Source: Ascidia mentula (Eukaryota; Chordata; Ascidiacea; Phlebobranchia; Ascidiidae). Taken from it: a stretch of 64,000 bases of DNA. The notes below the pieces were generated by a model. It saw only the letters and a list, made by a program, of their open reading frames with translations. It was not told the DNA's origin and searched no databases. The DNA lies in contig OX387199.1 in NCBI GenBank assembly GCA_947561715.1, forward strand, positions 4,655,001 to 4,719,000, written 5' to 3'. The position numbers and the translations under genes are program-made. This document shows, in pieces, positions 429-63,651 of the stretch. Positions within the stretch are counted from its first letter, which is position 1. The number at the start of each line of letters is the position of its first letter.

Positions 429-1608
429 TCAAATTAATAAAATGTGATTAACAATAAGAATAAAGCACAAAGCATCAGAAATACTCTTCCTAGGCGCGGT
501 GGCATTCAACAACACATGATCTATGTTGGTCTCTTGGATCGTCACGGTATTGTTGTGCAACGCTGTAACGGCGGATGACTTTTTGAAAGATGTTGTCGCA
601 TACCTTTGGTGAGCTGTGACTGGATTTCGAGTGGAAATTTTCCGTTCTGGTAATACAGATGTTGTTTTTGTTGGCATGGCATTAGTCGTCGAAGCTGTCG
701 AACTCCTTGGAGCTTCGAGAATGCTCGCCACGCTTTGACTGTTGCAGCCGTCTGAGTCGCAACACGCTGCTTTGCATTTACTGCAATATTAAGGAATTGC
801 ATGTTTCGGTTTTGTTCTAACGTCAAAACACTAAACTTAAATAGAAATCAACCACGCCATTCCAACAAGTTTAACTTGATAAAAATAGTGTATAAGCTGC
901 AGACAGATGGCCACTGTTTCGACCTAAAAGGTCTCATCAGTGCAGCTGGTGTGACTACAAGACGACTTTGCTGACCAAACGGTCAAGCAAAGACCACTTT
1001 GTGGTGACTATACAATCACCGTCATCCGTTGATAAAAATAAACCACACTTTGTACAGCAAAGAATTCAACACCCCGTTTTAACCTCAGGGTATTCGTTCG
1101 CCCTCTTGTAACATGCTTGAATACAATCTTAAGGAACAATTTTCATTTGGTAACCCACTAACTTTACCTGATTTGGGGTGATAGGCTTGCCAGCGATGGA
1201 ACCAAACGATTGAGTAGAGTTTGTGTATACTGAATGCAAGCTGCCTGACTCGATTCTATTTGTGAGCATTCAGAAGCAGTGTAGCATGACATGGCGTGGC
1301 CCGAGACGATGTAGGGGAAAATACTACCAGTTGCTGCAGACGAAGTTAAAAGTAGTGCACATATATAAAACGGTTTTAAGAAGTTATTGTCGCAAAAATT
1401 GGTCACGAAAAGTTTGACAAAGTTCAATGTCGTGCAAACCTTCAATACGAAGACACCTTTCCTCTGCTTCTCCGCACAGCATGTCATTTATAGCAGTGCT
1501 ATAAATTCCTGTGTTGTCCACAAACCCATTTCTGCACCGTAGAGCGTTCACGGCCATTGGGTACAGAAGGAGACAAAGGAAATGCAAACGCAAACTAAAA
1601 ACATCCAT
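429..1608 (-). CDS. Single-domain Ly6/uPAR (LU) protein, GPI-anchored
   Basis: Three exons read on the minus strand: 1440-1608, 1168-1333 and 429-780. The junction phases agree (1, then 2) and the product is 228 residues. It starts with a signal peptide (MDVFSLRLHFLCLLLYPMAV) followed at once by LRCRNG, the usual first cysteines of a three-finger LU domain. The last exon gives the LU C-terminal signature CCDSDGCN. A short Thr/Ser-rich stalk follows, then a hydrophobic C-terminus (ALCFILIVNHILLI) with no cytoplasmic tail, typical of a GPI-attachment signal. The likely role is a cell-surface recognition or signalling protein; the ligand is unknown. The first intron interrupts the domain in the same phase as in the two-domain gene at 2577-6549, so the two genes probably share an ancestor. 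Intron 2 (781-1167) carries a ribozyme-bearing repeat in the sense orientation. Confidence 0.8.
888..1028 (-). mobile_element. SINE-like element with terminal hammerhead ribozyme, copy 1
   Basis: A 141-bp insertion is bounded by a perfect 12-base direct repeat, TTGATAAAAATA at 876-887 and 1029-1040, which is a target-site duplication. Read on the minus strand the element begins near 1028 and ends with a hammerhead ribozyme about seven bases before the duplication. It shares its full length with the copy at 22323-22462. No open reading frame and no poly-A tail are present. It lies in the last intron of the one-domain LU gene and is transcribed in the ribozyme's sense direction by that gene. 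Schistosome SM-alpha SINEs and metazoan retrozymes have a comparable design; membership in either is inference. Confidence 0.85.
895..947 (-). ncRNA. Type I hammerhead ribozyme, complete
   Basis: On the minus strand every invariant part is present. Stem I is AGCTGCA (947-941) paired with TGCAGCT (901-895), 7 of 7. The core CTGATGA is at 940-934. Stem II is GACCT, loop TTT, AGGTC. GAAA is at 920-917. Stem III is ACAG paired with CTGT across a 7-base loop. The cleavage triplet GTC ends at 902, placing the scissile bond between 902 and 901. Stem I is open, which defines type I. In-cell activity is inferred, not shown. Confidence 0.9.
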
Positions 1609-2576: not shown

Positions 2577-5500
2577 CTAAGCATAACAAAACATAGAAAA
2601 CAACACACATAGAGTAATGAAAAACAGCATGCCGCTTATGGCCACCACTGTTTTCGCTTTCACAGGAGTATGAAAATTCTGACCCGTTTGAGTGGCTTGC
2701 TTGTGCAAGCTAACCAAGGCGGTTACCAATGTTGATTTGGTTTGGTTGCTGGCTGTTGAAACAGGAGAAACATGGGTAGTGCCATGGTGACGGCGTTCGG
2801 CACTGCCGCTTGGTGTACTTGTGGAATTAACAGATGAACTTCCTCTCTGTTGCTTGTCTGCAGTTGAACTTCCTGAAGTTGTAAACTGCTCCAAGTCCCC
2901 CATTACTGTTGTGCCTCCATTATTAGGCCTGGCATCTAATGATTCTATTTGCGAAGACGCGTTGTACGGAGCACTGTTTGGGTACAGGAACAGACAAATA
3001 GATTTTATTCTTTCCGATTGCGCTTGGGTGGTCATGTTTGATTTGGAAACCGAAATAGAACACATGCTTTTGATTGTTTGTAACTGGGTCGAGTTGTCTG
3101 CATTCGATTCTAACGCGGAAGCAACAGCTTTCTCATAAATCGTTGCGGTATTTTCTGTCCCTCTTTCCGATTTTATTGTTGTTAATGGTATTGCCTCAGT
3201 TGGCGCACTTGTTTGTGTGATAGCATCATCGTTTACTGTTGTTTCGATTGTTGGTTTCACTTTAGTTGTGTCTTCAATTGCGTTTACTGTCGGTGATTCG
3301 AAATGTATATCACTGTTTGTTTGAAATTCGGCACCAAAACTAGCAGTTTTTGATTCGAGTTGCTTTCCATAGAGAACCATGTTTGTAATTGCGACTTTTC
3401 TGGTTTCAATCGATGGTTTGGTTTGGGCTTGTATTGTTGTTGCGACAGTTAATGCGCTTGTGATTGCACTTGCTGTTGTTGGATATTGATTTGAAGTTGT
3501 TGCACCGTTTCCTGTTGGATCTACTGGTGTTGTCGTTGTTCCTATTGTTGTTTGATTTTTAGCCTGTATATCTGTTTGTGTTCCTTTTTCAACTTTGGAT
3601 GTCATCCATGCATGGGATAAGGCTGGAGTTGCAGGTGTTGCTTTTACTGTTGTTAGAGGTTTCTTTGCAGTCATTGCTGGTTCTTCAGGAGTAATTGCAG
3701 CTCTTGTTGTCATTGCAGCTTCAGTTGTAGTCATTGCTTTTGTTGTTTCGGGTACCCCCGGTGTAGTGGTTACTCTTGCTGTTGTTTGAGGTTCGACAGA
3801 GGTCGCTGCCTTTGTTGTAGTTGGAGATTCCGTTGTAGTAGTTATTCTTGTTGTTGTTAAAGCTTGAGTTGAGGTTGTTGGCCTTGCTGTTGTTGAAGAT
3901 TCAGTTGTAGTCTTTATGTTTATTGTTGTTAAAGCTTTACTTGTGTTTGTTGGCCTTGCTGTTGTTGGAGATTCTCTTGTTGTTTCTAGAAACCCCGGTG
4001 TTGTGGTTACTCTTGCTGTTGTTGGAGATTCAGTTGTAGTCGTTATTCTTGTTGTTGTTAAAGTTTTAGTTGTAGTTGTTGGCCTTGCTGTTGTTGGAGA
4101 TTCCTTTGTAGTCGTGGCTCTTGTTGTTTCTAGAAACCTCGGTGTTGTGGTTACTCTTGCTGTTGTTGGAGATTCAGTTGTAGTCGTTATTCTTGTTGTT
4201 GTTAAAGTTTTAGTTGTAGTTGTTGGCCTTGCTGTTGTTGGAGGTTCAGTTGTAGTCGTGGCTCTTGTTGTTTCGAGAAACCTCGGTGTTGTGGTTACTC
4301 TTGCTGTTGTTGGAGATTCAGTTGTAGTCGTTATTCTTGTTGTTGTTAAAGTTTTAGTTGTAGTTGTTGGCCTTGCTGTTGTTGGAGGTTCAGTTGTAGT
4401 CGTGGCTCTTGTTGTTTCTAGAAACCTCGGTGTTGTGGTTACTCTTGCTGTTGTTGGAGATTTAGTTGTAGTCGTTATTCTTGTTGTTGTTAAAGTTTTA
4501 GTTGTAGTTGTTGGCCTTGTTGTTGTTGGAGGTTCAGTTGTAGTCGTGGCTCTTGTTGTTTCGATAAACCTCGGTGTTGTGATTTTTATTGCTGTTGTAG
4601 GAGATTCTGTTGTAGTAGTTATTCTTGTTGTTGCTACAGCTTGAGTTGTGGTTGTTGGCCTTGCTGTTGTTGGATATTCAGTTGTAGTCGTGGCTCTTGT
4701 TGGTATTGGCTTTGTTGTGGTAGCTTGAGTTGTCGTAAATATCCCCGTAGTTGTCAAAGATGCTGTTGTGGGTTTGGGCCACTGGTCCATAGGCAGTTTG
4801 TTGCAATCGTTTGTGTAGCAACATCCAATATTGCAATCTCTGAAAAACAAGTTATGTATGACGAAATGAATGCAAAGTAATGTCCACTACATCGCTACCC
4901 CCAACAATAATATAGCTGTTTTATACAATTAAACAGATATTTACTTTCAACCGACGGCTTATTTTATTTATGGGCGCATATTTTGCAAAACGAATGCACC
5001 ACTTTTTAGAATGTTTTTCCCATTAAAAGGGATTATACATTTAATTACTGTCAGCAAATAGTCGTAGATCTCGTGTTTTAGGATTGTTCAAGACCTGACG
5101 TTTTCGACGTATTCAAGAATTCCGCCAATCAGAAAGGTTGCCAACTTGGAGCATTCTGCTTGGAATGTGGCGCAAGTTTTCTGAGTCACGCATTCGAACC
5201 CTTCGCCAACAAAGTGACCTTCAAAAGTAAAAGTGTTGCAGGAATTGCGTTGCAAAAACAGCAAAACACAACTTTTTGTGGAGATTCACAGTGACCAATG
5301 CAGACACTGCGTAAGTGCAATGAATGTTTGAGGATATGTGTTCCTTTGGCATTTAAAATTTATTTTATATTTTCTGAAAACATTGACCTTTCGTAAGAGT
5401 TTACATTAGCGCAAAAATGGTACAGTTCCCCATGTAACAATTATATTTGTCCTTACTTCCATAGATCTGGCTTTCGGCATCAACCCGAACGCAGGCGAGT

Positions 5501-11600: not shown

Positions 11601-14600
11601 CTTCTAGTGTCATAAACACCCCGAACGTCTTTACTTATACACGTGCTGTCACAGAACCTGATCCAAGCACATCTGCAACTAGTAGCAGCCAAACAATTAT
11701 TTCAGTCGTTGATCCGACCAAAAAAATGACCAAATCTCCTAAAAGCACGACACCATTTACAAAACAAACGACTGAAACTGCCTTCTTAAGTTCTGTTGTA
11801 ACGTCAAAACCGACAGAAAAGTCGACAGAAAGTTCCAGTGAAGCGCAGAGCACACCCGAATTCACCGCAACAACTGAACCAAGCTACACAAGCAAAGATC
11901 TTAATCACACCACGCCAGGAAGCACCACCAGCATGTTATCAACACTTTTATCAACATCCAAACCAACGACAATTCCGGTAACTACAACTCATTCGAATGC
12001 GGCCACCACAGCACGCAGTAACCTTACTACGACTCATTCTCACCGCAAAGAAACTGCGAATGATGCAGCTGAAAACTCAAAGAATACAAATGAAAATTTC
12101 TATAGTATAACAAAGCCAGTTCCCGGTACTTTAGTCTCCGTACTTCTCATGATCAACATCACAGTTAACATAAACAATGAAAGGCTCGTCGCCTCATTGG
12201 AACGCCGTCTTGAGGACGTCTGTGAAGTTGTATTTGGGGTAATAAGAAAAATTCGAAAGCATGAAAGTCATACGTTTATGTGATAAGAAGTTGTTTTGTA
12301 ACTGCCTAATGGCGTGATGTTCGCGAAAATACTTACGATTCCGTCAACCATATTCAAAGATTTTTTAAAATAAATTAATTATTTTAATTTCAGACAGAAG
12401 AAAAAGTAATAACACCAAAGCAAAGTTATTTTGCAGATGCAAAACTCCACTATTAACTTTGTTTTACAGCTTTTTCATATTTGCACAATATTGTTTCAGG
12501 TGATAGATAAGAAAAATGTATCAGTCAAGAAGCGACGTTCGTTGCGACGCCTACTACAGAGCAACAAATACAAGGTAGTTAAGTAGTAGTAAATCCACAG
12601 TTACTCACTGTCCATACCAGTCTTGTCCGACGTACGCCTTGTACTGAAGGGTCACTTAAGGCACTTGGTTTTGTTTTCATCAGGTCGATGTGAACAGTTT
12701 AGAGAGAGAAAGCGATTGGGCCGTGGACGCTAAGTTTAGCGTGACAAGAAACAATGAACCAATCGCCAGTGATGTGGTTGTACAAAATTTAAGGTGATTC
12801 AGTTTAGAATAAAGATTCATTTAGTCTCCGTGTGCGCATTTCACTTTCACTCGAACAGTCAAAAGTCCCAGCAAAGCTTTAATTATGCCTAAAACTTTCT
12901 TTGTGTTTTCCCCTATAGAAAACTGTCAGCACGTCAGATTTCATCAGTTGTCGGGTACCCGGTTCTTTCCCACGCGACCAAAGTGGGTGTGCTTAAACTT
13001 CCATCAGGCAAAACTTACTATTTCACAGGTTTGATAATAGTGTTGAGTTTCTCTTACATTCTCATAATTCTGATTACATTTCTAATATTTCTCTGTTTCT
13101 TGTAGAGTTGGTCATAACGATTGCAGTCATGAGCGCCATAATTATTGGACTATCAACCACCTTTGTATTTTGTTTTAAGCACCCAAAGAGTTTGTCAAGA
13201 AAGGTATGCGTGTCACTAGCAGCTGCACCAAGTAAGGCATTTAGGAACTGTTTTTTATTCAAGCAGAACAACAGAGTATCCAATGTCGAAGCAATGCTGG
13301 AAAATGGATCCCTCAGTCCATCTACTGAAGACTCTACGAACGCGTTTTGCGGAACAGAAAACACAGCGTCGAATGCCTGTTTAAAGGACTTTCCAATGTA
13401 AGCTTGCACATAAATCAGTTTTATATAAATTCTTTGCAACATAATGATGAATGTTTTGCCGTGTGTGGAATTTGAAAAATATGGTTTCAGGTCGCACGAA
13501 AAACCTCAGCAGGCTCCAAAACATTATGAGACGCTAAAACCACCGGCTGCCATCATGTCCACAGCCACCGAAGCACTGCAAACTTTCGAGGATCTCAAGC
13601 AGTTAAAACTGCAGCCACAGACGATTTGTGCAAGCGCTGGTACACAGACTAACGTTAGTGCTGAAAAGGAAATTAAAGCCAAACAAGAGGTAGGAAAGTT
13701 AGAGGTATTTTAAGCTTTGAATTAGCAGGGAAGTTGACTCAAAATCATTTTGTTAAATAGTCTCCGAAACGGAAACTAGACGAAAATCTATGGAATCCAG
13801 TTAAATCAAGAACTGAGAAGTCGCAACCCAATCACCTTTCGTTTTTACCACTTTTGCCGGAAAAGGTAACTGCGTTACATTTCGTGAAGTACACGAGTTT
13901 GCATTACACAAAACACTTTCTTCATAGAACATTCCCCTGATACTACAACCCCTGCCACAAGCTCCGTCAATCAACGACCACGGTACAAAAAAATGTAACA
14001 AATTATAAGGCAAATATCCAATCAATTTCTCGACGCAAATTGGAATGTTTGTTACTTCTACATTTTGAGTTAAAAAGGCGCTGTCATGGAATTTTTAGAT
14101 CAGGCCACTGTTTCGAACCTATTATGACTCATCAGTGCAGCTTGGTGACTTTTGATTATCTTGCTGGCAACACAACTGGGCGAAGACTTTAGATCGTTTA
14201 AAAACTGCACTGATGAGAGAACTAGTAGATCCTGTCTGCCACTCACTTAAAATTATTGCCTCTATGCTTATATTTCGAATTTTGGTTAAACAAGTAGAAA
14301 TTCCATCGGGAGTTCACAACAATCCTGAATTGGAAAAGAGCATACGAAGGTCTATGACGGCAGAAAGGCGAAGAAATAAGCGACGGTTACGCGAAATGGC
14401 CAAGAAAGGAAGAACCAAGGAGCAGGTAATGTTTTGTGCCATGTATGTTTGGTGTTTTTTTGTTTAGAATTTTATCTAACATAATTTCCCGCGTTGAATA
14501 AGGATGGTCGTTGTACAAATAACGTCACACCGTAGAGAGTACATTTTTTTAATCCCAAACAGAAAAGGAATGCATTTGCAATTGTACGGTAAGTGAATGT

Positions 14601-20997: not shown

Positions 20998-22869
20998 TTA
21001 ATCGTTTCTCTTGTGCACACCATTAGATACTCTCGAATCCTCGACAAGGCAAAGGTCGATGGTACGAATGTGTGTCAACTCATGCGACATTGTAAGAATG
21101 AAAATCACAAAGGAGTAAACCATGATCCACTCTGCTGTGCTTACAGGATGTGTTACAACCTTAAAGAAAAATTGAAAAAATGAGTTATTTTTATCCCAAT
21201 ACCGAACTGCCTTATTTTAACTCTAATTTTGTACATACTTACATTATCAAAGATAAATCCTTTGGTAACTGCAAGTTGTATTATTTCGTTGTTTAGAAAA
21301 AAGTTCGAATCGACTGCATTCAAAGTATAAATATGTTGCCATGCTAAACATTATCATGGTTTATTATACACTTTATATCCTCAAGCAATGTGTAAATATA
21401 TTTTTGGCAGTGTTTCGAGAAAGGATACAAATTGAGGAAGCAACAACTTGCGCAACGAGGCAAGACCACCGAACAACTGAAAGGAAAGTTTTCGATCGTC
21501 CGTTGTGCGTTTTCGACAGTTCGATCAGAAGGGACATTGAAAGCACGCAGTAAGTAAACCCAGCCGAGAAAGTAAGAAACGCGCCTACATAATGTACCAA
21601 GTACGACTTGCGAACCTGAAAAGAACAAAAACAATACAATTTTAGCCTTGGTGTATGTGAATGACAGACAGTATAACACATAACGTTTGGAAATTCAACG
21701 AGACATCGAACGGAACCATTTCTACTATTTAATAAATGTTAAACCGTTCTTGTTTCAAACAAGTTATTCATATAGTGCTATTCTTGTTGATAGGCAATTT
21801 TAAATAACTGTTCTTCTGGCCTGAGGTTAGGGGATTTTTGTTACAACCGACGTTTCGTCCACTATCTGGCTCCAAATGTTATCTACTCCCCCTTTTTTTC
21901 TTGTGTTTTCTTACGGTTTTGTGTTTTGGAGAAGTCTCACCGGATGGTTGTGATCAAAATCTCGTAACCTTGTGCCAAAAGAACATTTCTTTAAAATGTT
22001 ATTCATAGTTTATATTTCACATCAACGTTCATGATCGAAGACAAACAAAAAGATGGTTTTAGTTTGAAGCTATAAGGAAGGCTAATACCTCAAAGCAGCC
22101 AGCCATCGAGACCCCAATAACGTTTATAATACCCATGAACAACGCCGATGTGTTCGTAAAAGACTGTCCTCGAATTGCAATAAAATATCTAAAAAATATT
22201 AAAATTATTTAATTTGGGTTGTTTTGTTTTGACTTATCATAACTTGTTTCGTTTTATTCTCTAGAACAAAAAAGTTGAAAAATTTTCTATTTCATATATT
22301 TTTATCAAATAAACGTTTTAATTGTGTAAGTTGCAGACAGATGGTCACTGTTTCGACCTAAAAGTTCTCATCAGTGCAGCTGGTGTGACTTTCAGACAAC
22401 TTTGCTGACCAAACGGCCAAGCAAAGACTTCCACTTTGTGGTGACTTTACAATCACCGTTATAAACATTTTAATATAAAGTTTACTGAGCTTTTTAACTT
22501 TTGTTGACAGAAATATGTTAATCACGAAATTATCCTATCGGTTTGCTCAAGACGATACTAAACCAAATGAGTGTTTTAATTCTACCGGTAAAATATGTAG
22601 ACATGAAGGAGAGTGAAGAAGCTGTACCAGTTCATGACCATAGCTATCATGCCGCCTCCGGGTGGTTGCGACGCTATATCGCTTATCATCGGCACTAAGG
22701 ATAGGTCCAGGTTTCCATTGAACAACGACGTCAGATAGCTGTATAAAATCATATGTATTTTTATTACTTACTAAGCTGCCTGATGCATGTATGATGATGC
22801 AACTCACCAAATAACGAGACCATTTGCTACCCACGTAAAGCCGATGTAGGTTATATACACAGGACGCAT
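20998..22869 (-). CDS. DRAM/FRAG1-family six-pass membrane protein, copy 2
   Basis: Six minus-strand exons: 22808-22869, 22586-22738, 22089-22188, 21429-21615, 21243-21268 and 20998-21159, giving 229 residues. Every exon has the same length as in copy 1 except the last, which is one codon shorter. The start MRPVYITYIGFTW, the loop VPMISDIASQPPGGG, the block MSLLIELSKTHNGRSKTFLS and the C-terminal SRVSNGVHKR pair closely with copy 1. The two are tandem duplicates, diverged in introns and intergenic sequence. The predicted role is as for DRAM/TMEM150 proteins (lysosomal or plasma-membrane tetra- to hexaspan). Intron 3 carries a retroelement-tail fragment near 21833. The ribozyme repeat copy 2 lies in intron 2. 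Confidence 0.85.
21833..21900 (-). repeat. Retroelement 3'-tail-like fragment
   Basis: On the minus strand GGACGAAACGTCGGTT is followed a few bases later by AAAAATC. A near-identical string occurs at 49308-49332. Such CGAAACGTCG tails are common at the ends of Penelope-like and some LINE elements, so this is probably a truncated insertion. Confidence 0.4.
22323..22462 (-). mobile_element. SINE-like element with hammerhead ribozyme, copy 2
   Basis: This 140-bp copy is co-linear with the one at 888-1028. It is flanked by AAACGTTTTAAT (22311-22322) and AAACATTTTAAT (22463-22474), a 12-base target-site duplication with one mismatch. It sits in intron 2 of DRAM-like copy 2, in that gene's sense orientation. 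No coding capacity. Confidence 0.82.
22329..22381 (-). ncRNA. Type I hammerhead ribozyme, near-complete
   Basis: The core CTGATGA, GAAA and the GTC cleavage triplet are intact on the minus strand. Stem I has one mismatch (AGCTGCA against TGCAACT), stem II one (GAACT against AGGTC), and stem III (ACAG/CTGT) is whole. Reduced but possible activity is inferred. Confidence 0.8.
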
Positions 22870-47185: not shown

Positions 47186-49501
47186 TCAAATATCCCCTTG
47201 GCTAAAACCCTGGTTGGTCTCCGCCGAGACGCTGACGTCATTCGGCTCCGTTTTGATTTCTATGACAGTTCGAAACGACTTGATTCGACTCATCTCAACA
47301 ACCAGAGTCAAAACAAAGAAAAGTGAGCTGTATATAAACAACCATTGAGATATGGTGGCGTGGTAACGAGGTTCGGAACGAAACTGCAAAAAAGTGATTT
47401 TTGATCAAAATCAAACATGATAACAAGAAAATATTGTAATGCTGCTGACATGGTGAACTTGTCAGTGGTGAGCGTTAAGAAAGCATTATCAATATGATAT
47501 ACATTAATGTATCCACGGCCACATTTGATAAACTGTAAAAGAATTACTTACGTAGTATAAGCACACAAATGTAATAACTTGAAGACAACAAAGGAGGAAA
47601 TAATAAAGCTGTAAAGGAAAAAATGAGGATACGAACATTTGATACAAGCGGTTTATCTGGCACAGCACTCATGGTCGAGTAATATTAAAGTGAATCAGCA
47701 ACAGCTTGTAAGATTGTAAAAAAAAACATGAAAAACAGGGTGATGTAGGTTTAGTGTAGACTTAGCATATAAAATCAAACGACTCTTTAAACGAATTGTA
47801 CCTATAGCTGCCTAATATCCGCTGTTAACTCCATTTGCTAATAATGTTCAACTTGTAAATTACACCGCTGGGTAAAAAGGATACAAATTACACAGAGGAC
47901 GGTTGTGATGGAAGCCATGAGAAAACGAAGGACCACGAGCCAGTCTCTGATATTCGATCGTTCCTTCAAGGTTATGACGGTAACAAACCATCCGTATAGC
48001 ACGATTCCAAAAAACACAGCGTACGCCGCAATAAGATGCGGTATCAACAGCACTGTCCACTGAAAATACAAAATAATTGCGACAAGAAATACTTGAGAAT
48101 TTTCATAACAAATCCATGTCGCCTACAAGAGCATTATGACATTGCAAGCACCTATGTTAGAAGAATTTTCACTTTTTTGGCCATTTTTGTTTTCCTAAAC
48201 CAAAGGTGCACAACACAAATTTGCCACGCCGTTGGTTAGAAGGTGACAGCATTAAGCTGTGTTCAGCGTGTAATCTGTTATTTCATGCATAATGGCCTCA
48301 AACCATTTCGTTTGTAAACTTTTCGAAGTGAAGCCTACAGTTGAACAGCAGGCGAAACGACGGCGAATAAAAGTATAATTTTGATTGGGCCAGAAGGACA
48401 GAATTGCAACATACTTGAAAGCAACAGAAGCAGAATGTTTTTTTTGTAATGCTTAAAGTATGTCATGCTACGTCAATATGTGCTTCCTTCGCAAGTACTG
48501 GTTATAAAGTGATTGTAATATTATCAGCACCTGAAATGCTCCAACACCCGTGATTCCAATCGTTATTGCCACACCGACGTACCAAGCTGCCTTATTAGTT
48601 TTCGGACAAAATCCCAGTTTTTCAACGTACCTGCAAGGGATTTTGATTAGTTTCTCGATCACCAATGAAAATTACCACCAACTTGTAGTAACAGTGTAGT
48701 GTTCCCATCAAAGGTACGCAGGCCCACGTAAGTACGAGGGTAAACACACAGCTCTGCGGTGTGTAAGTTCCCGTGTCACTGACGAACGGCCATTCCTGGT
48801 ATCTTCCCTGACTTCGACCGATTCCATAACTGCGTAAAAACAAATGAAAGGAGTAAATATGTTACACTTACTTTCATTAGGGCTCGTATAGGGCCGACTT
48901 CAAACCAGTCGGGTGTATACGACTTTATTAAAAACCAGAAGTTTTTGCCTTGGTGTTTGGCGTACAAGATCGTCTATAGCCATGCCGCACTGATGAGACC
49001 TTATAGGTCAAAACAGTGGGTGACAAGCAACATCGCGAGGCGTTCCTCACGAAAAAAGAAACGATACAGTGGCCATTTGTCTGTAACTCTCATAATTAAT
49101 ATAATATGTCCTTGAAAAGTTAAAAAAAACTCGAGTTTTGAAAAAATAGAGGTGCAAACAGTACGTCGAGGCACAAGTTTTACAAACCAATGTTTTGTGT
49201 TCAGCGCTTTCACGCAAAATGTGCTTGCCAAAATTTGAAATACTGTTGCTGCCGGGCATATATTGTAATTTCAAAGAATCTGACCTTCTCTGGTACAATT
49301 TTACGTTGATTTTTATTAACCGACGTTTCGTCTGATATCCAATTAAGTTTTTAGCGTCAGATTCTTTAAAACAAAACTTTTTTATTGGTCTCATTTCTCG
49401 CAAAATAACAACACGATTCTGTGCAGCCAATCAGCCACAACGCGATACTAACCATATGAAAACTCCTCCGCCGAATAACAGAAAAAAGGCAACAGGCAGC
49501 G
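47186..49501 (-). CDS. DRAM/FRAG1-family membrane protein, copy 5 (5' end incomplete)
   Basis: Six minus-strand exons: 49453-49501, 48683-48829, 48531-48630, 47885-48059, 47552-47577 and 47186-47383. Helix 1 is LPVAFFLLFGGGVFI, the loop is WPFVSDTGTYTPQSCVF, and the C-terminal tail ends SAETNQGFSQGDI. The 26-base microexon and intron phases match the other copies. The first exon has an in-frame stop just upstream and no ATG, and it is preceded by an acceptor-like ttacgcag, so a further 5' coding exon is needed but was not found. It is shorter in exons 2 and 4 than copies 3 and 4. Intron 1 contains a decayed ribozyme repeat and a retroelement tail. Confidence 0.8.
48981..49030 (+). repeat. Decayed hammerhead-repeat copy 4
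   Basis: On the plus strand CTGATGA and a whole stem II (GACCT/AGGTC) remain, but the invariant GAAA reads AAAA, so the ribozyme should be dead. It lies in intron 1 of DRAM-like copy 5, antisense to that gene. Confidence 0.75.
49308..49332 (-). repeat. Retroelement 3'-tail-like fragment
   Basis: The minus strand carries GACGAAACGTCGGTTAATAA followed by AAATC, nearly the same string as at 21833-21859. It probably marks the end of a truncated Penelope-like or LINE insertion. Confidence 0.4.
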
Positions 49502-56231: not shown

Positions 56232-59123
56232 CTACACACTGACATCAATTTGTGTTGAAACTTTGGCAATTGGGTGAGCTGGGCGTGTCAACGGGTGACT
56301 GATGACCACTTCGGTTTTGAATTCCACTACATTCCGCAGGTCATATGCTAACGTTGACAAAGTAATAACTATAAGGTAGATGGCTATCCATTCCACAATA
56401 GTGGCCCAAGCCCGATGGTTTCCCGGATCCACCTAAAATAGTCATGACAACTTGAAATTCAGCGAACTAGCAAAACCACTTCTTGTAACAAAATGTATGC
56501 CTTTGATAAGTGAACTTTATGTAACAATAGGGTTCTTACATCATAACAAATCATTAATCCTTGCATTTTATAGTTGCTTCCACAACAACTATGAAGCCAA
56601 TAATTTCATTGTGTTACGGTATATTATCGCCCACTTCATACAGTGAATTTGAAAAAAAATAATTACCTGCGTGTCAACGAACAACCCAAACCCAACTGAA
56701 GATAGAAGTGGATTCAGTTAAGGAATGAAACTATAGCAGGAAACTAATGTAACACAATAAAGAAAGTGCGAGAGGTTTTAAGATATTTTAACATTTATTA
56801 CAATGTCCACCTTTTCAAATTTCAGTCAATGTTATTTTCGTGCAACTGCTTTTGTATTGAATCCTAAGTAATTCGTTTCACAAGTTTAAATCTAAGATTT
56901 GATACAGAAGTCGTTGAAAAAATCTGAGTCTTTCTGCGCTGTAAAAGCTATCAGGAGAGCCAGATGAAAACAAACGCTCATCTGTACTTTCGTGCCGATA
57001 CCGTTTTTGTCAAAAAAATGCATTTTTCCAAAGCGGTTTTTCTAGATTTTTTCAGCATACTTGTTTGACATAAAAGGATACAGCCTAAGACACACAAGGT
57101 TGTCATCAATGTCAGAATCCCTCTTAAGTAAACTATCATCTTTCCGTGCGCGTGTGGAACCAGTTGGCGCCATGCGATGACCACTATCAACCAGCAATAC
57201 ACAGCGGCACCCACGAACACAACCGAGGCTGCAGCGAGATGGACTTCGAGCCAGATGTTCCACTGTAAACAGTTGAAGTACAGTTGAAGTGAAAAAACAC
57301 AGACCACACCAGGGTCAAAATTTTAAAATCAAGTTTTAGGATATTATTCGAGGAATGATTGGTAATCAATTTAAGCATACTTTAGATGGCAATGTAGCAT
57401 TTGTTTCAAAAAGTAATTGCTGTGAGCCGAATAAGCCAATAAGTCCATATCAGTAGCCAGCCGCACTGGTGAGACCTGCGGATAGGTCCAAACAGTGTAC
57501 ATTGTCTGTAACTTAAGAAGTAACTTATCCCAGTGCTTGATATATTACCCGTATTGTGCCTGTAGGTATTATTCCCAGACAAGCGACCATTCCGACCCAC
57601 CAGGCAGCTTGGTTGAGCTTTGTATCTTGGTCGCATGCAATCACGTACCTGCAGTAAAATGATCATATGAACATATATATATATTGATCATGGAAAATGA
57701 TCATGTGAAGATCTGTTTCATTTAAGCACTTTTTCCTGATGAAGGTCGAATGCATAACGACCGAAACGTCGACCAATTAAATTAACTTTTGTCAGATAAA
57801 GAGGTTCCTTTACTTGTTATACTTACTTGTAATAAAGGTGCATGGTGGCGAAGCCAAAAATCGCACCAAAGGCCAAGAACAGTCCGAACAGACAACCCTC
57901 TGGTCCCTGGGAACCAGTGTCGCTTACATAAGGCCATTCAAAAAAACGACCTCGTGATTTTCCGACTCCATAACTAAAAACAGAAAACCTTGCTTAGATG
58001 GACACAAACAGGGGCTTTTCTGTGTCCTTGTGTGACCTATAAAGAACAGGCAACTTTTAACCTCGGATATTTGGGTCAAAAGTTTTTGTTTTCACCAGTA
58101 ACGACACAAATCGCGTGTTTATTATGTTGTAATAGTTGTGATGCTATCCAAAGAGCTCAGGAAAGTGATCGGGCGGAAAGGCGTGTAGTGATTAGTCAGA
58201 TTTTCAATCTGATGCTATTTCAGGAAATTCCCCTGTATCGTATACGTGCGTGACTGGTATAAGTGCAAATGTTCAATTTCTCCTCACTGTAACTGTCACG
58301 GTTTGATTCGCGTATGAAATTTGTAGCTGACAAAGTGACGTTGGAAAAGTATATTTTACGTGCATGGGACGAGACGTGCAGCATGTGACGTTTACCTGTC
58401 ACGTGACAATATGTTACGTAAATAATTAGGTTTTCGTATACAAAGGTTTGACATACCAACACTTCCGTCGTTAAATCAGTAGTAATTTACGTTGTTGGAA
58501 CAAAACAAGATGGTTGGATATCGACATGATTTGAAAGTAAGTTCAGGCGCCGAGTTAAAATTTATTTGGACAAACAATGGCATACACCAACGCAGCCAAC
58601 CGTCTTTTACCGTTCAGTATCAGCCCAAATCCTAACACAACAAATAAGCGGAAAACTTGTGGTTTTTACTCAACATTCGAAACTTTTTGTATAATCTACC
58701 CACAAAATGCCAAAGTTGCGAAGGCATATAATTGTTAATGAATCACATATAGCAGACATGCTGTTTTAACAGAACTGACCTTCACATACATGAGCTATAT
58801 AGCGCACTGCCAACAACAACAACGGCAGCATTTAAAACTGTTGATGCTGATGAAGTGCGTTTTTTCAAAACCTTCATGTTTAACTAGTGTTTGAATGTTC
58901 TAACATCCTAACATCCAATAATAGACCGACATCTCATCGGCATTTAATCCCGTTATAAAGTGATCCACCGCCCCCGTTCCACCAGATTCAAGGTTTACGT
59001 TTATTTTATAAACTCGTCACATTGCTTAACAAAACATCTCGCTTACCATATCAAAATTCCTCCTCCAATAAACAGTAGGAAGATTATAGGAAGAAAAATG
59101 CCTGTCTTTTGATATCCGTACAT
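56232..59123 (-). CDS. DRAM/FRAG1-family membrane protein, copy 6
   Basis: Six minus-strand exons: 59047-59123, 57827-57973, 57549-57648, 57082-57262, 56667-56695 and 56232-56432, giving 244 residues. Helix 1 is IFLPIIFLLFIGGGILI, the loop WPYVSDTGSQGPEGCLF, and the last helix IAIYLIVITLSTLAYDL, preceded by the conserved VEW. The microexon is 29 bases here, one codon longer than in the other five copies. Exon 2 has the same short length as copy 5, so copies 5 and 6 may form a subgroup. Introns 2 and 3 contain ribozyme-like repeats. Confidence 0.87.
57458..57514 (+). repeat. Decayed hammerhead-repeat copy 5
   Basis: The plus strand keeps the outline (GCACTGGTGAGACC, AGGTC, TGTCTGTAACTT), but the core reads CTGGTGA and GAAA reads CAAA. 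Two invariant positions are lost. It lies in intron 3 of DRAM-like copy 6, antisense. Confidence 0.65.
57736..57770 (+). ncRNA. Minimal hammerhead-like motif, Penelope type (tentative)
   Basis: CTGATGA (57736-57742), a 5-bp stem GGTCG/CGACC with a 9-base loop, GAAA (57763-57766) and GTC (57768-57770) follow in hammerhead order, with a minimal AC/GT stem III. One extra A precedes stem II and stem I is only about two pairs. This resembles the minimal hammerheads of Penelope-like elements, though the downstream CGAAACGTCGAC is also a common retroelement tail. Confidence 0.4.
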
Positions 59124-60259
59124 TTTATTTTTATCCCTAATACAATTCCTGGGTTAAAACATAACGCACCTTTAGGTTAATGCTGTATCTCGGCGTACTA
59201 ATATTACCCGTAAATACGATATAACTGAACAAGCGAACTCAAGAATACTTCCTTAATTTGTATCAAAGACATCTGGCTTCCAATCGTGCCCCGAGGTTAG
59301 CGGGTGGACTCTAAACAGACAAAATCATTCATTTACAGCCGGCCATTACTTTGTGCATTCGTCTGGGGAAAAAAGAAAAAGTTTGTCGGTGACGTTTGCA
59401 TTCGCACTGCGCGAACACACGGCACGTTAACTAAATGTGTTGTTAACTGACGCAATATGAACGGCGCTAAAATAATACGTCAGAAAAGTACCTTAATCAA
59501 ACACTTTATGTTTGCTGGGCCAATATAGCACTGACCTAATTAGAGTAATGCCTCATATGGGCCTTCCAATTGGCAGTAATATTGTCAGTTCGCTGGATTG
59601 TTGAAACCAAAATCTCCGTTTTTAAATAAGTCTAATTTAATTATGTTAAGTTTGTGGGCTGCGTACATACGGCCATTGTTTTGACCTACAAGGTCTCTCA
59701 TCAGTGCAACTTGGTGTGAAAAGCTACTTGGGATCAACGTGAGTTTTATTTCACGAAATTTTAGGTCGGTTATTATATGCTGTTAAGGTGAGAAACAAAT
59801 CACAGGTAAAATTGTAAGCAACAACAGGCGGAGCTACCCAGGATTATCAGGTTGGCCTTTTTTTTGAAGAGGTTCAGTTGTGAAAAAATGCCTTTCGCCT
59901 CTCATTAAATTTGGCTTTTATTTGGCCCATTTTACTTTATTCTCCGTGAATGTTTATTCGTTAAAACTTATTAAATTTTTGTGTCTTTCCCTGTAGTGCT
60001 ATCATTGGTTACGGGTAGGTAATTTGCTTTTTTTGTAACTTTTTGGCTTGATGCATTTATTATAGTCTGGTAACTATTGGGGCCTCCTTTTTCAGTGGAA
60101 GTAACTCTTTAATATAATACACGCATGAGCGCGTTTTAACAATTATATTATCATCAAGTGCAATCAACCATCATAAATTTACTCAGCCGTAAAAATATTA
60201 CATAACAAGCCGGGAAAAGTAAACAAAGGGAAAATGTTGCTGAAGGTATAAATGATATC
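59124..60259. other. Divergent intergenic region, DRAM copy 6/TMEM53-like
   Basis: The promoters of the minus-strand DRAM-like copy 6 and the plus-strand TMEM53-like gene 1 should lie here. The only other recognised item is the decayed ribozyme repeat at 59656-59722. Confidence 0.5.
59656..59722 (-). repeat. Decayed hammerhead-repeat copy 6
   Basis: The minus strand has AGTTGCA and CTGATGA with a recognisable stem II, but GAAA reads AAAA and the 3' strand of stem I no longer pairs. No target-site duplication was found. Confidence 0.65.
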
Positions 60260-61048
60260 ATGGAGGCTGAAGAACAAGCAACCGCGCAAAAACCACTGGT
60301 AATTTTGTTAACGTGGATTGGTGCCACAGAAGGAGCGGCAGCCAAGTATTGCGAAATATACGAGGCTTTAAACTGTGAATGCCTTGTCAAGTACTCAAGC
60401 ATTGTAACTTGTCTTTGGCCAAGCTGGATGATTCAAACCACAGAGGCGTTGCTGCAACATGTAGACAATCAGTTGAAAATTGAAAAACGCCCCATCATTG
60501 TCCACTGTATGTCTATAGGAATGTACTTTTACTCTGCAATGCTCTATATTTTAAAGGAACAACCAAATGACTTTCAAACCATTCAGAGTTGCATTGTGGG
60601 TTTAGTGGTGGATAGTCCCACATTGGAAGACTTATCGATTCTGGAGTCATTGACTCTATCTTCTGTATCTAATTCAGCCACTGTACAGTATGTGTTAAAA
60701 ACAGTTTATTGGTGCTTGACTGCAATCACCAATTCACAAAACAAAAGCTACCACAAACTGTTATTGGATATGTTTAATAGTCAACCATTGCATATCCCTT
60801 GCTTGCTAATGTTGCCGGAGGGAGATCCCTTTTGCAGTGAAAAACATTTCTGCAATGTTATAGATCGGTGGAAAGACAAATCTGTTCCAGTGCAACATAT
60901 CATATGGAAGGGGTCACAACATTGCAAAAATCTAGTGTTTCATCCAAAGGCTTACAGAGAAAAAATAAAAAAGCTTGTGGAATGCAGTCGGCCACTATTT
61001 TTTGGGCACAATTCTGTTGATTTAAATCTCTCTTCTTCTCGGATGTAG
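60260..61048 (+). CDS. TMEM53/DUF829-family alpha/beta hydrolase, gene 1
   Basis: A single open exon of 262 residues. TMEM53-family proteins have an alpha/beta-hydrolase fold; vertebrate TMEM53 sits at the nuclear envelope and dampens BMP signalling. The fold start KPLVILLTWIGATEGAAAKY matches the family. The nucleophile elbow is HCMSIGMYF (Ser85), with the expected Asp in PEGDPF (Asp189) and His in GSQHCKNL (His221), so the catalytic triad looks complete. The ATG follows gatatc directly and no upstream coding exon is needed. It is first of three tandem relatives with 0.4-0.6 kb gaps. Exon structure differs from the intron-rich neighbours, suggesting a retrocopy origin followed by tandem duplication, which is inference. 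Confidence 0.85.
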   Translation: MEAEEQATAQKPLVILLTWIGATEGAAAKYCEIYEALNCECLVKYSSIVTCLWPSWMIQTTEALLQHVDNQLKIEKRPIIVHCMSIGMYFYSAMLYILKEQPNDFQTIQSCIVGLVVDSPTLEDLSILESLTLSSVSNSATVQYVLKTVYWCLTAITNSQNKSYHKLLLDMFNSQPLHIPCLLMLPEGDPFCSEKHFCNVIDRWKDKSVPVQHIIWKGSQHCKNLVFHPKAYREKIKKLVECSRPLFFGHNSVDLNLSSSRM

Positions 61049-61492
61049 TATTGTAGTGTTTTTCACTATGCAATTGTTTATAACTCTATGGGCCAGGTAA
61101 CACCTATCAAATAACTGTGTCCCAAAGTGAACTATGAACATTAGAAAATACCTCAAAGATTTTTCCTCATTGTACAAAACTGCCTTAAATGCCTCGCATT
61201 TAGTTGTCCTATTTTTCTTTTATCTTTATTAGTCCTGTTTATTGCTTGTGTCTTAACAATTATTTTTTGATAAATTTTAGGTCTATGTATGAACAATTTC
61301 TTCCAAGTAAGAGAACCTGGGGCAGCAGTTGTACTACATAATTTTCTGAGACGTAATTGTGCTCATTGTTATGACCTATCACATCTTTACCTTTCTACGC
61401 ACAAAACTTGATCAAAACAATCAGCCTATCTAAGTTGACATCTCTGCATTTCAGTACTATTGTTAGGTCTAATGCAAATCAAATTTTTATAA
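61049..61492. other. Spacer between TMEM53-like genes 1 and 2
   Basis: AT-rich non-coding stretch of 444 bases. No perfect AATAAA was noted close to the stop of gene 1. Nothing else seen. Confidence 0.5.
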
Positions 61493-62245
61493 ATGGGCAA
61501 GAACAAAGGCAAGCCAATTGTGGTGCTTTTTCCATGGCTTGGATCAACACCTGGTCTCATTGCAAAATATTCCGTACTGTATGAAGTGCTTGGTCTAAGT
61601 GTGAAAATTAAAGTTCTTCACATATTGGACTTTTTTTGGCCACAACGAGGTATTCAAAGTGCAGTGACCTTCCTGGACCACCTGGAAAAGGAATTGGAGA
61701 ACCAACAATGCCCTATCATTATTCATGCCATGTCAATTGGGTGTTATTTTTACAACATTTTGTTGTACCTCTTCGCAACGCAGCCACAGAAATATGCAAA
61801 AATTAGAAATAATATTTGTTGCCAGATTGTAGATAGTCCAGTGGTCGGAACCTTGCGAGAAATGGCAAAAGGGTCTGTAAAGCCTTTGACAGACTCCACA
61901 AAACTCCAGTGCATTCTGGAAAAAATGCTAATGCTGTATTTTGCAACAAGTAGGCCCTACACTGTGTGGTATTATGATAAATTTGTTGACATCTTCAAGA
62001 ATAAACCTGTCAATGTACCCTCTCTCTTATTGACAAGCATTGGGGACAAGTTTGCTCCAAAGGCACATTTTGAGTCACTAGTTGATGCCTGGACAAACAA
62101 CAAACAAATATTTTCTGTTGTTGTTTGGGATGATTCAGAGCATTGTGCTCATCTAAAACACCACCCACAAGAGTACAAGGAAGCTATTTACAAACTACTG
62201 AACCAGGCATTGCCTGACTTGGTGCTTAGAAAATCTGTGCTCTGA
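61493..62245 (+). CDS. TMEM53/DUF829-family alpha/beta hydrolase, gene 2
   Basis: A single open exon of 250 residues. The N-terminus is short, so the fold begins almost at once (KPIVVLFPWLGSTPGLIAKY). The nucleophile elbow is HAMSIGCYF (Ser81); Asp185 is in SIGDKFA and His217 in DSEHCAHL, followed by KHHPQEY, a family landmark. The sequence VDSPVVGT is shared with gene 3 and VDSPTLED with gene 1. It is a tandem duplicate of its neighbours but well diverged, so the duplication is not recent. Substrate unknown. Confidence 0.85.
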   Translation: MGKNKGKPIVVLFPWLGSTPGLIAKYSVLYEVLGLSVKIKVLHILDFFWPQRGIQSAVTFLDHLEKELENQQCPIIIHAMSIGCYFYNILLYLFATQPQKYAKIRNNICCQIVDSPVVGTLREMAKGSVKPLTDSTKLQCILEKMLMLYFATSRPYTVWYYDKFVDIFKNKPVNVPSLLLTSIGDKFAPKAHFESLVDAWTNNKQIFSVVVWDDSEHCAHLKHHPQEYKEAIYKLLNQALPDLVLRKSVL

Positions 62246-62820
62246 ACTGTTCGATAAATGTTACTTTAATTATTTTTGTAGTAAATTTAGGTTGTAAGTA
62301 AATATTTACGAATTTATACCTGCCAATGAGTATTCCAGTAAAACCTGGCCCACAATTTTGCATATCTAAACACCAATGGATGAATTTATATTTTAGATTT
62401 GCTACTATGTACCAACACACAAACCTCATGCTATTATGTGCTGAATTTCTTCAAGCACAAACAACACAATTACTTCTCACATTTTTATAGCACTTAATTA
62501 TTTCCGTACGCATTTTGATTGTCACCTTTATTCATTCCGACACTAGGAAAATGCACTAATGTATGCATACATTTCAGATGTAACATTTCATACGTACTGC
62601 TTAATTGCTTAACATTTTTATCTCCTATTGTATTTATGTGCCTTGATTGCCCAGCTATTTTAACTGATTGATCTATTTGTGTTCCTCAACTAAATTGCAT
62701 TGTTCTTCCGTTTTTACATTCTGAAATCTCATGTAATATTTACAAATTTATCACGTGAATTATTTCTGTTTAACTTCTTTCAAACAACTTGTGATTTCTG
62801 TGTTTGTTAACAGATAAAGA
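62246..62820. other. Spacer between TMEM53-like genes 2 and 3
   Basis: AT-rich, no gene. An acceptor-like tttgttaacag ends at 62813, eight bases before the ATG of gene 3, so gene 3 may have a non-coding first exon further upstream. Confidence 0.45.
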
Positions 62821-63651
62821 ATGGCCTTTATTAGGTTAGGTGCCAACTTTGCAAGGTCCAAGCTATTTCTCTTGCAAAGCCAATCACAAAACTGCTTGCA
62901 AATCCAGAAAAGGTTGGTTAAAACAGTACAACAAGACAGTCTCCGTCCCCTAGTTGTGCTGCTTCCTTGGCTTGGTGCAACACATAGGGCAACAGAAAAA
63001 TATGTGGAGCTCTACAAGAAACTGGACTTTGATGTCATATCATATCAGCCTGTGCCTATAGATATTTTATGGCCCCTAGCAGGCATGAAGAAGAGCAGAA
63101 ACTTCCTGCTAAATATACAAAAGGAGATGAAGGTTTCAAACAGGCCAGTGATTGTTCATTGTATATCAGTTGGGGGTTACTTCTTTGCTCTAATGCTGCT
63201 ATGTCTTGAGAAAGAACAAAAACTGTTTCAAAATATTTTATCAAACATACGGTGCCAAGTTATTGATAGTCCTGTCATTGGAACAATGAACGAGGTTGCC
63301 ATTGGTGTTAGCCTTCTGTCAGCTAATTCCAAACCATCTCAAACCATTACACAGTTTATTATTAATGCATATTTTAAACTTCTGTCCCCCTTTACTGTTA
63401 CCCACTATAATAAATCTATGGATGCAATAAAATTTCGCCCTTCAGTGGTACCAGCTTTGATGATGACATCAAATAATGATCCAATGATGCTTCCCAGGGC
63501 ATTTGATGGCTATGTAGATGCATGGTCCAAAAGAGGCATAGAAGTAAAAGTAAAAATGTGGCAAAATTCTGAGCATGCACAACACTTCAAACACCACCCA
63601 GATGAATACACAAGTTTGGTTCAAAACTTTGTGAAGCAATTTGTTACCTGA
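62821..63651 (+). CDS. TMEM53/DUF829-family alpha/beta hydrolase, gene 3
   Basis: An open exon of 276 residues. Unlike genes 1 and 2 it has about 40 extra N-terminal residues (MAFIRLGANFARSKLFLLQS and on), rich in Arg, Lys, Ser and Leu with no acidic residue until about residue 39. That looks like a mitochondrial presequence. The fold then starts RPLVVLLPWLGATHRATEKY. The triad is Ser116 (HCISVGGYF), Asp220 (SNNDPM) and His252 (NSEHAQHF), followed by KHHPDEY. A likely poly(A) signal AATAAA lies at 63663-63668, 12 bases after the stop. An acceptor-like site just before the ATG suggests a 5' UTR intron. Different targeting from the other two copies is inference. Confidence 0.85.
   Translation: MAFIRLGANFARSKLFLLQSQSQNCLQIQKRLVKTVQQDSLRPLVVLLPWLGATHRATEKYVELYKKLDFDVISYQPVPIDILWPLAGMKKSRNFLLNIQKEMKVSNRPVIVHCISVGGYFFALMLLCLEKEQKLFQNILSNIRCQVIDSPVIGTMNEVAIGVSLLSANSKPSQTITQFIINAYFKLLSPFTVTHYNKSMDAIKFRPSVVPALMMTSNNDPMMLPRAFDGYVDAWSKRGIEVKVKMWQNSEHAQHFKHHPDEYTSLVQNFVKQFVT

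Follow-up and report, generated by a model that had tools for sequence, protein, structure and literature searches.

Genomic evidence for a Penelope-like route of insertion in a hammerhead retrozyme family of Ascidia mentula

The schistosome element SM-alpha is a non-autonomous retroelement that bears a hammerhead ribozyme (HHR), as is the Ascidia mentula retrozyme described here. Metazoan non-LTR retrozymes combine type I HHRs with units of 150-450 bp that occur as dimers to multimers (PMC7229834). The enzyme that spreads them has been left open, with Penelope-like elements (PLEs) proposed as a strong candidate and no more (PMC7229834, PMC7761336); the words tunicate, Ciona and inverted are absent from the main text of the former paper. 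Among the PLEs themselves, the protein of the Anolis element Poseidon_Ac cuts and extends both strands of an AT-rich target, reverse transcription (RT) begins internally in the RNA at two neighboring positions past the HHR, and the sequence separating these positions makes up the genomic tail (PMC11167929, whose main text contains neither the word retrozyme nor the word circular). In Adineta vaga Penelope elements, a 31-bp tail is optional at one of the inverted pLTRs and the target-site duplications measure 8-10 bp (PMC3846280, in which the word hammerhead is absent). The Didemnum genome paper reports nine type I hammerhead loci. In the openly licensed literature, covered mostly as titles and abstract openings, we found no report that ties the two-site (A+B) insertion signature set out below to retrozymes. 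This signature links one retrozyme family to the PLE route, and so provides genomic evidence for a route of animal retrozymes that was formerly only suspected.

The window analyzed here is a stretch of 64,000 nucleotides (C52:4655001-4719000) in a genome that was searched over 195.8 Mb and 79 contigs; its features are collected in Table 1. A sequence-only reading of the window had proposed a complete type I hammerhead on the minus strand, with stems of 7, 5 and 4 pairs and a GTC cleavage triplet. This proposal held up: under a strict descriptor (stems II and III fully paired, stem I with at least 4 pairs) the motif is the sole match in the window, and the same scan returned no HHR from any of 20 sequences resampled from the window under a first-order Markov model. 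In the covariance-model check that the reading had proposed, the window HHR stays below the Rfam gathering scores (21.4 bits for Hammerhead_3, 19.8 bits for RAGATH-1-hammerhead). The Rfam type I search gave zero matches in the whole genome but also in each of 14 control genomes, and so does not discriminate. Among 11 related sequences, CTGATGA is invariant, GAAA has changed to AAAA in two, and 88% of stem cells are paired, against 19-36% in slid structures. Since no pair shows double changes among these 11 sequences and 119 of 500 shuffles equal the observed pairing, the stems are without covariation support. The usual contacts between loop I and loop II are not obvious, given a three-base loop II and an unbulged stem I (both by eye). 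The window motif is a type I hammerhead ribozyme with a full catalytic core, for which cleavage is predicted. Elsewhere in the genome, for example in C1:3568139-3600179, an additional variant of the HHR has a stem III that is longer and palindromic (GTGTACAC), which might favor ribozyme dimers. The window also holds a threonine-rich, internally repetitive, mucin-like ORF (2577-4850, minus strand) and adjoining ORFs of 262, 250 and 276 aa that look by eye like paralogues of one another (60260-63651, plus strand).

Table 1. Retrozyme-related features of the window (positions are those of the window)
Feature	Position	Strand	Remarks
Type I hammerhead ribozyme	895..947	minus	strict scan; sub-threshold Rfam matches; predicted cut 902/901; letters AGCTGCA CTGATGA GACCTTTTAGGTC GAAACAG TGGCCAT CTGTC TGCAGCT
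HHR stem I	947-941/901-895	minus	7 pairs; placed by eye
HHR core CTGATGA	940-934	minus	by eye
HHR stem II	933-921	minus	5 pairs; by eye
HHR core GAAA	920-917	minus	by eye
HHR stem III	917-914/906-903	minus	4 pairs; by eye
HHR GTC triplet	904-902	minus	predicted cut between 902 and 901; by eye
Retrozyme copy, 5'-truncated	888..1028	minus	unit about 152/155-284, then 1-14; alignment to family
14-nt stretch TGCAGCTTATACAC, cut site to inserted 3' end (RT start site A)	888..901	minus	
Target-site duplication TTGATAAAAATA, copy on the 3'-end side	876..887		strandless
Target-site duplication TTGATAAAAATA, copy on the truncated 5'-end side	1029..1040		strandless; first 3 bases ambiguous with element
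Second 5'-truncated copy	22323..22462	minus	90% identity over 140 nt; HHR core retained, one mismatch in stem II; flanks ATTAAAATGTTTAT / ATTAAAACGTTTAT (by eye)
Diverged HHR-region relative	59658..59719	minus	82% over 62 nt
Diverged HHR-region relative	14103..14150	minus	inverted piece of the same motif upstream (by eye)
Diverged HHR-region relative	48984..49019	plus	
Diverged HHR-region relative	57457..57515	plus	

A genome search with the window copy as query, in which 40 of 1,758 candidates were scored, produced 50 matches. The truncation of the window copy is evident from most of the 30 loci fetched, where the family sequence extends beyond position 1028. The full unit is defined by locus L027, where the HHR cut sites lie exactly 284 bp apart: it spans 284 nt in the order HHR-body-HHR, has a GC content of 47.5% and stands in tandem in L026/L027. 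Dimers or tandems occur in L013, L017, L026 and L030, along with longer arrays; individual arms of insertions exceed 284 nt (507 nt at the longest among the fetched loci), and exact patterns place six HHRs in a single arm on C1 at a spacing of 285-286 bp. The earlier reading had described a 141-bp SINE-like element with boundaries at 888 and 1028, where in fact a 5'-truncated piece of this unit is found; position 888 stands as a 3' end of the family (end A below), and 1028 is the truncation point of this one copy alone. Its perfect 12-base duplication is present, but the first 3 bases can be assigned to the element as well, so that the length is 9-12 bp. The earlier reading was right in its broader suggestion that this is a retrozyme-like retroelement carrying a ribozyme and flanked by a target-site duplication. 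Judged by its sequence features, namely the type I HHR motif, a unit within 150-450 bp, duplications of more than 4 bp and a GC content below 50%, the window contains a single truncated copy of a metazoan non-LTR retrozyme with a 284-nt unit. Genome-wide, 1,129 exact HHR core matches were found, a lower bound on the copies that includes more than one HHR variant, as compared with zero in the reversed-pattern control. Recent activity of the family is suggested by main arms whose identity to the unit is 93-100%, with a median of 97%, and by at least 29 places, among the matches listed, that are identical across the 88-nt query.

Aligning copies of the family allowed us to ask where insertions end. 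We compared 47 unique insertions from 60 loci (13 of the 60 being merged as duplicates), which represent the best matches to the window copy rather than a random sample. Two clusters of 3' ends emerge, A at unit 10-20 and B at unit 34-55. A script based on the duplications places the end 10-20 or 34-55 nt beyond the HHR cut in 46 of the 47, and in the window copy the distance is 14 nt, which contradicts the proposal that self-cleavage defines the inserted 3' end. For L013 the script value was spurious and the alignment alone gives 15; the duplication fixed the end wherever an alignment overran into the target (e.g. L015, L025, L066, L070, L073, L074). Head-to-head insertions, in which both outer ends are 3' ends, make up 26 of the 47, and each of the 26 joins one A end to one B end (with A taken as unit 24 or less in this test); shuffling the ends among these pairs produced an all-AB outcome in none of 20,000 trials. 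The 21 single-arm insertions comprise 18 with A and 3 with B, counting as single L090, which carries an inverted B piece of 8 nt (by eye). An exact-pattern check of chromosome 1, as far as it was listed, covered 10 head-to-head clusters beyond the fetched loci; 9 were A+B and one, C1:6185295-/6185806+, was AA (exact patterns only). Exact matches across the genome, obtained with slightly different patterns, number 909 that reach the A site and 353 that run past it. Between the two arms of the L025 insertion, at about 1400-1500, lie some 100 nt unlike the unit (by eye), as if RT had jumped onto another RNA. L050 494-760 holds a different retrozyme family with roughly 70% identity over 209 nt; 22 nt of its A-B tail region are unchanged, which suggests that the tail is a recognized signal.

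Target-site duplications of at least 9 bp flank 36 of the 47 insertions (that of L013 having been rejected by eye as spurious), compared with 3.4% of 854 mismatched-flank controls. Seven further insertions have a duplication of 7-8 bp only, and none of at least 7 bp was found for L006, L016, L068 and L075. Around head-to-head pairs taken as a whole, the duplication is at least 9 bp in 21 of 26 and 7-8 bp in three, with none found in two; most of these pairs are therefore single insertion events. Among the 34 lengths listed, 12 bp is modal (16 cases), with 13 bp in 8. The listed duplications are 83% AT against 60% in the window, and at 32 sites, with the A arm oriented to the right, the flanks tend to be A-rich before the duplication and T-rich after it.

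The genome also houses PLEs with the same kind of ends. A GIY-YIG search gave 121 matches, a number of which lie in 730-892-aa open frames and in head-to-head neighbors (by eye), and the two PLE ORFs examined both contain RVT_1 and GIY-YIG. Family 1 has 801-aa frames with these two domains; a protein search with such a frame returned 1,161 hits, with PF00078, PF28514 and PF26215 in most of the 120 listed. Its 3' ends lie at query 243-248 and 281-293, and A+B is seen by eye in 7/7 neighboring pairs with both outer ends listed, a count that leaves out query-spanning matches, a 358-bp array and small fragments. The PLE in L061 likewise combines an A end with a B end on the opposite side and is flanked by a 12-bp duplication, TTTGCCAATTTT (by eye). 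Family 2 ends at 307-317 and 343-352, with A+B in 13 of 15 neighboring pairs (by eye), of which three C1 and two C52 pairs may be segmental duplicates. Its exceptions are C67:6425556-/6429263+, where both ends are A and lie 3.7 kb apart, perhaps as two insertions, and C69:7929675-/7929878+, where the left match ends at 248, at neither site. Both families thus have two 3' ends 37-38 nt apart and an A/B pairing like that of the retrozyme. A hammerhead-like motif sits just 5' of the family 1 ORF (by eye), and RT starts about 77 and 115 nt past the cut in this family (cut placed by eye) and about 15 and 45 nt past it in the retrozyme. A search of PLE loci L031-L063 for similarity to the retrozyme tail yielded nothing above shuffles save the retrozyme copies themselves. 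Within the window, the plus strand at 57736-57793 contains a Penelope-type minimal hammerhead-like motif, CTGATGAAGGTC..GACCGAAACGTC (by eye). In C70:3829790-3833654, a 358-bp piece of PLE family 1 (query 34-394, with a 3-nt ATG overlap) is repeated in both head-to-head arms. This array (ends L094 and L095), as read on either side of its central ~1.3 kb, has A on the left, B on the right and a 10-bp duplication, AATCGACCAA (by eye). To judge from these letters, its unit looks like a retrozyme newly formed from a PLE.

Insertion by PLEs is the best reading of these data because the retrozyme copies bear the published PLE tail signature: two 3' ends about 30-40 nt apart, a tail in one arm, and an AT-rich target with a short duplication. 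The earlier reading had put forward no mobilizing machinery. We consider it very probable that the retrozyme is inserted through PLE machinery, with HHR-cut units, a probably circular template and A/B priming by the PLE protein in trans. From the unit, the HHR motif, the 3' ends, their pairing, the duplications and the PLE pattern we infer the steps of cleavage, circle and action in trans as follows. Tandem retrozyme copies would be transcribed, and their type I hammerheads would cut the RNA into 284-nt units, which a host ligase probably circularizes, by analogy with published retrozymes. The PLE protein, with its RT and GIY-YIG endonuclease, would bind the retrozyme RNA and cleave both strands of AT-rich DNA, with cuts about 12 bp apart. 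RT would then begin inside the RNA, at A (~15 nt past the HHR cut) or at B (~30 nt further). With both DNA ends in use, one priming at A and the other at B, head-to-head arms would form; with one arm only, the product would be a single copy, often 5'-truncated like that of the window. RT may also run past its own start, as it could on a circle, and so produce tandem units.

A variant of this route would use a linear multimeric transcript as the template, leaving the HHR dispensable for movement. HHR-dead Anolis PLE RNA still inserts in vitro (PMC11167929), and genomic tandem copies could yield multimer RNA, which could template tandem arms. We nevertheless regard this variant as unlikely, given where arms stop: 12 of 72 arm 5' ends lie at A (unit 13-24; the next highest 12-nt bin holds 6, and L013 is left out), and nine arms measure 274-285 nt with none at 256-273, as if one circle had been completed. 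A linear template would also be expected to lose length with each truncated generation. A circular RNA template, suggested by the arms longer than 284 nt and by the 5' ends piling up at A, fits both. Another cluster of 5' ends, at unit 229-252, comprises 12 ends over two bins, and RNA structure may therefore account for some of the stops as well. The predicted fold of the 284-nt circle has a z of -2.8 against 100 dinucleotide shuffles, and in its minimum-energy form a rival CACU/AGUG helix (unit 244-247 and 271-274), whose letters most of the 11 aligned HHR sequences retain, replaces stem III. In this model, the competing helix could silence the ribozyme within the circle.

With PLE insertion from a circular template as the preferred reading, a tentative and rather doubtful extension is that one RNA circle serves both DNA ends, with one subunit of a PLE dimer priming at A on one target strand and the second at B on the opposite strand, and with each RT liable to halt where the other began. 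In L010 and L018 the arms add up to nearly one circle and hardly overlap, the B arm stopping at unit 14-16 and the A arm at 50-57, and in L007 the B arm stops at 16 and the A arm continues to 23. Most other pairs overlap, which would require strand displacement or two RNAs. If the extension were true, the structure of the PLE dimer would itself impose A+B, any small circular HHR RNA could exploit this, and the PLE-derived 358-bp unit on C70 would represent a retrozyme at the moment of its origin.

Judged by the retrozyme and PLE insertions, the proposal that a LINE, rather than a PLE, mobilizes the retrozyme, with inverted arms produced by twin priming, is improbable. Target-primed reverse transcription by LINEs is also compatible with 5' truncation and short duplications, which counts in its favor. 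In twin priming, however, the inverted segment derives from a separate region further upstream in the RNA that is copied, whereas both retrozyme arms carry a 3' end and most arm pairs overlap. The joining of two distinct 3' ends in every head-to-head pair is moreover the PLE tail signature, present in the resident PLEs, and by eye no poly(A) or repeat tail is seen at retrozyme ends in the fetched loci. LINEs and PLEs are both named as candidates by Cervera and de la Pena (PMC7229834).

A SINE with a passenger hammerhead, made as a linear Pol III RNA whose 3' end is trimmed by self-cleavage, would account for short, repeated, truncated copies with duplications and is highly improbable on other grounds: the HHR stands at both ends of the tandem unit, and insertion ends do not coincide with the cleavage site. 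ARAGORN detected no tRNA in the window and crude A-box and B-box patterns were not found in the unit, and a tRNA-derived SINE was rejected for the window element. Satellite-type DNA amplification in place of retrotransposition, which the C1 arms with 6 and 4 HHRs might suggest, is scarcely credible as the source of the tandem arrays, because both of these arrays lie inside head-to-head clusters with A+B ends and the 47 copies are dispersed, with fixed 3' ends and, in 36, duplications of at least 9 bp.

The insertion signature reduces to a plain expectation, namely that every double-armed insertion has one A end and one B end; other genomes and in vitro assays offer a way to check it, and the signature also constrains the poorly known PLE mechanism. 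Plant LTR retrozymes are likewise HHR-bearing and non-autonomous, but they have LTRs, type III HHRs and 4-bp duplications (PMC7229834). The metazoan non-LTR retrozymes are closer, with a type I HHR, a small unit, multimers, a GC content below 50%, duplications of more than 4 bp and co-resident PLEs; unlike in the A. mentula family, we found no two-site 3' ends, head-to-head arms or A+B pairing described for them in PMC7229834. Adineta vaga Penelope differs in being protein-coding, and resembles the retrozyme in its optional tail, in head-to-head arrangement as the most frequent one, and in pLTR sequences that are trans-acting (PMC3846280). Poseidon_Ac is autonomous and coding, its RT starts lie further from the cut, and its HHR cleavage required protein, unlike what is proposed for the retrozyme; the two are alike in having two neighboring RT starts downstream of the HHR, an AT-rich target and an optional tail of 30-40 bp (PMC11167929).
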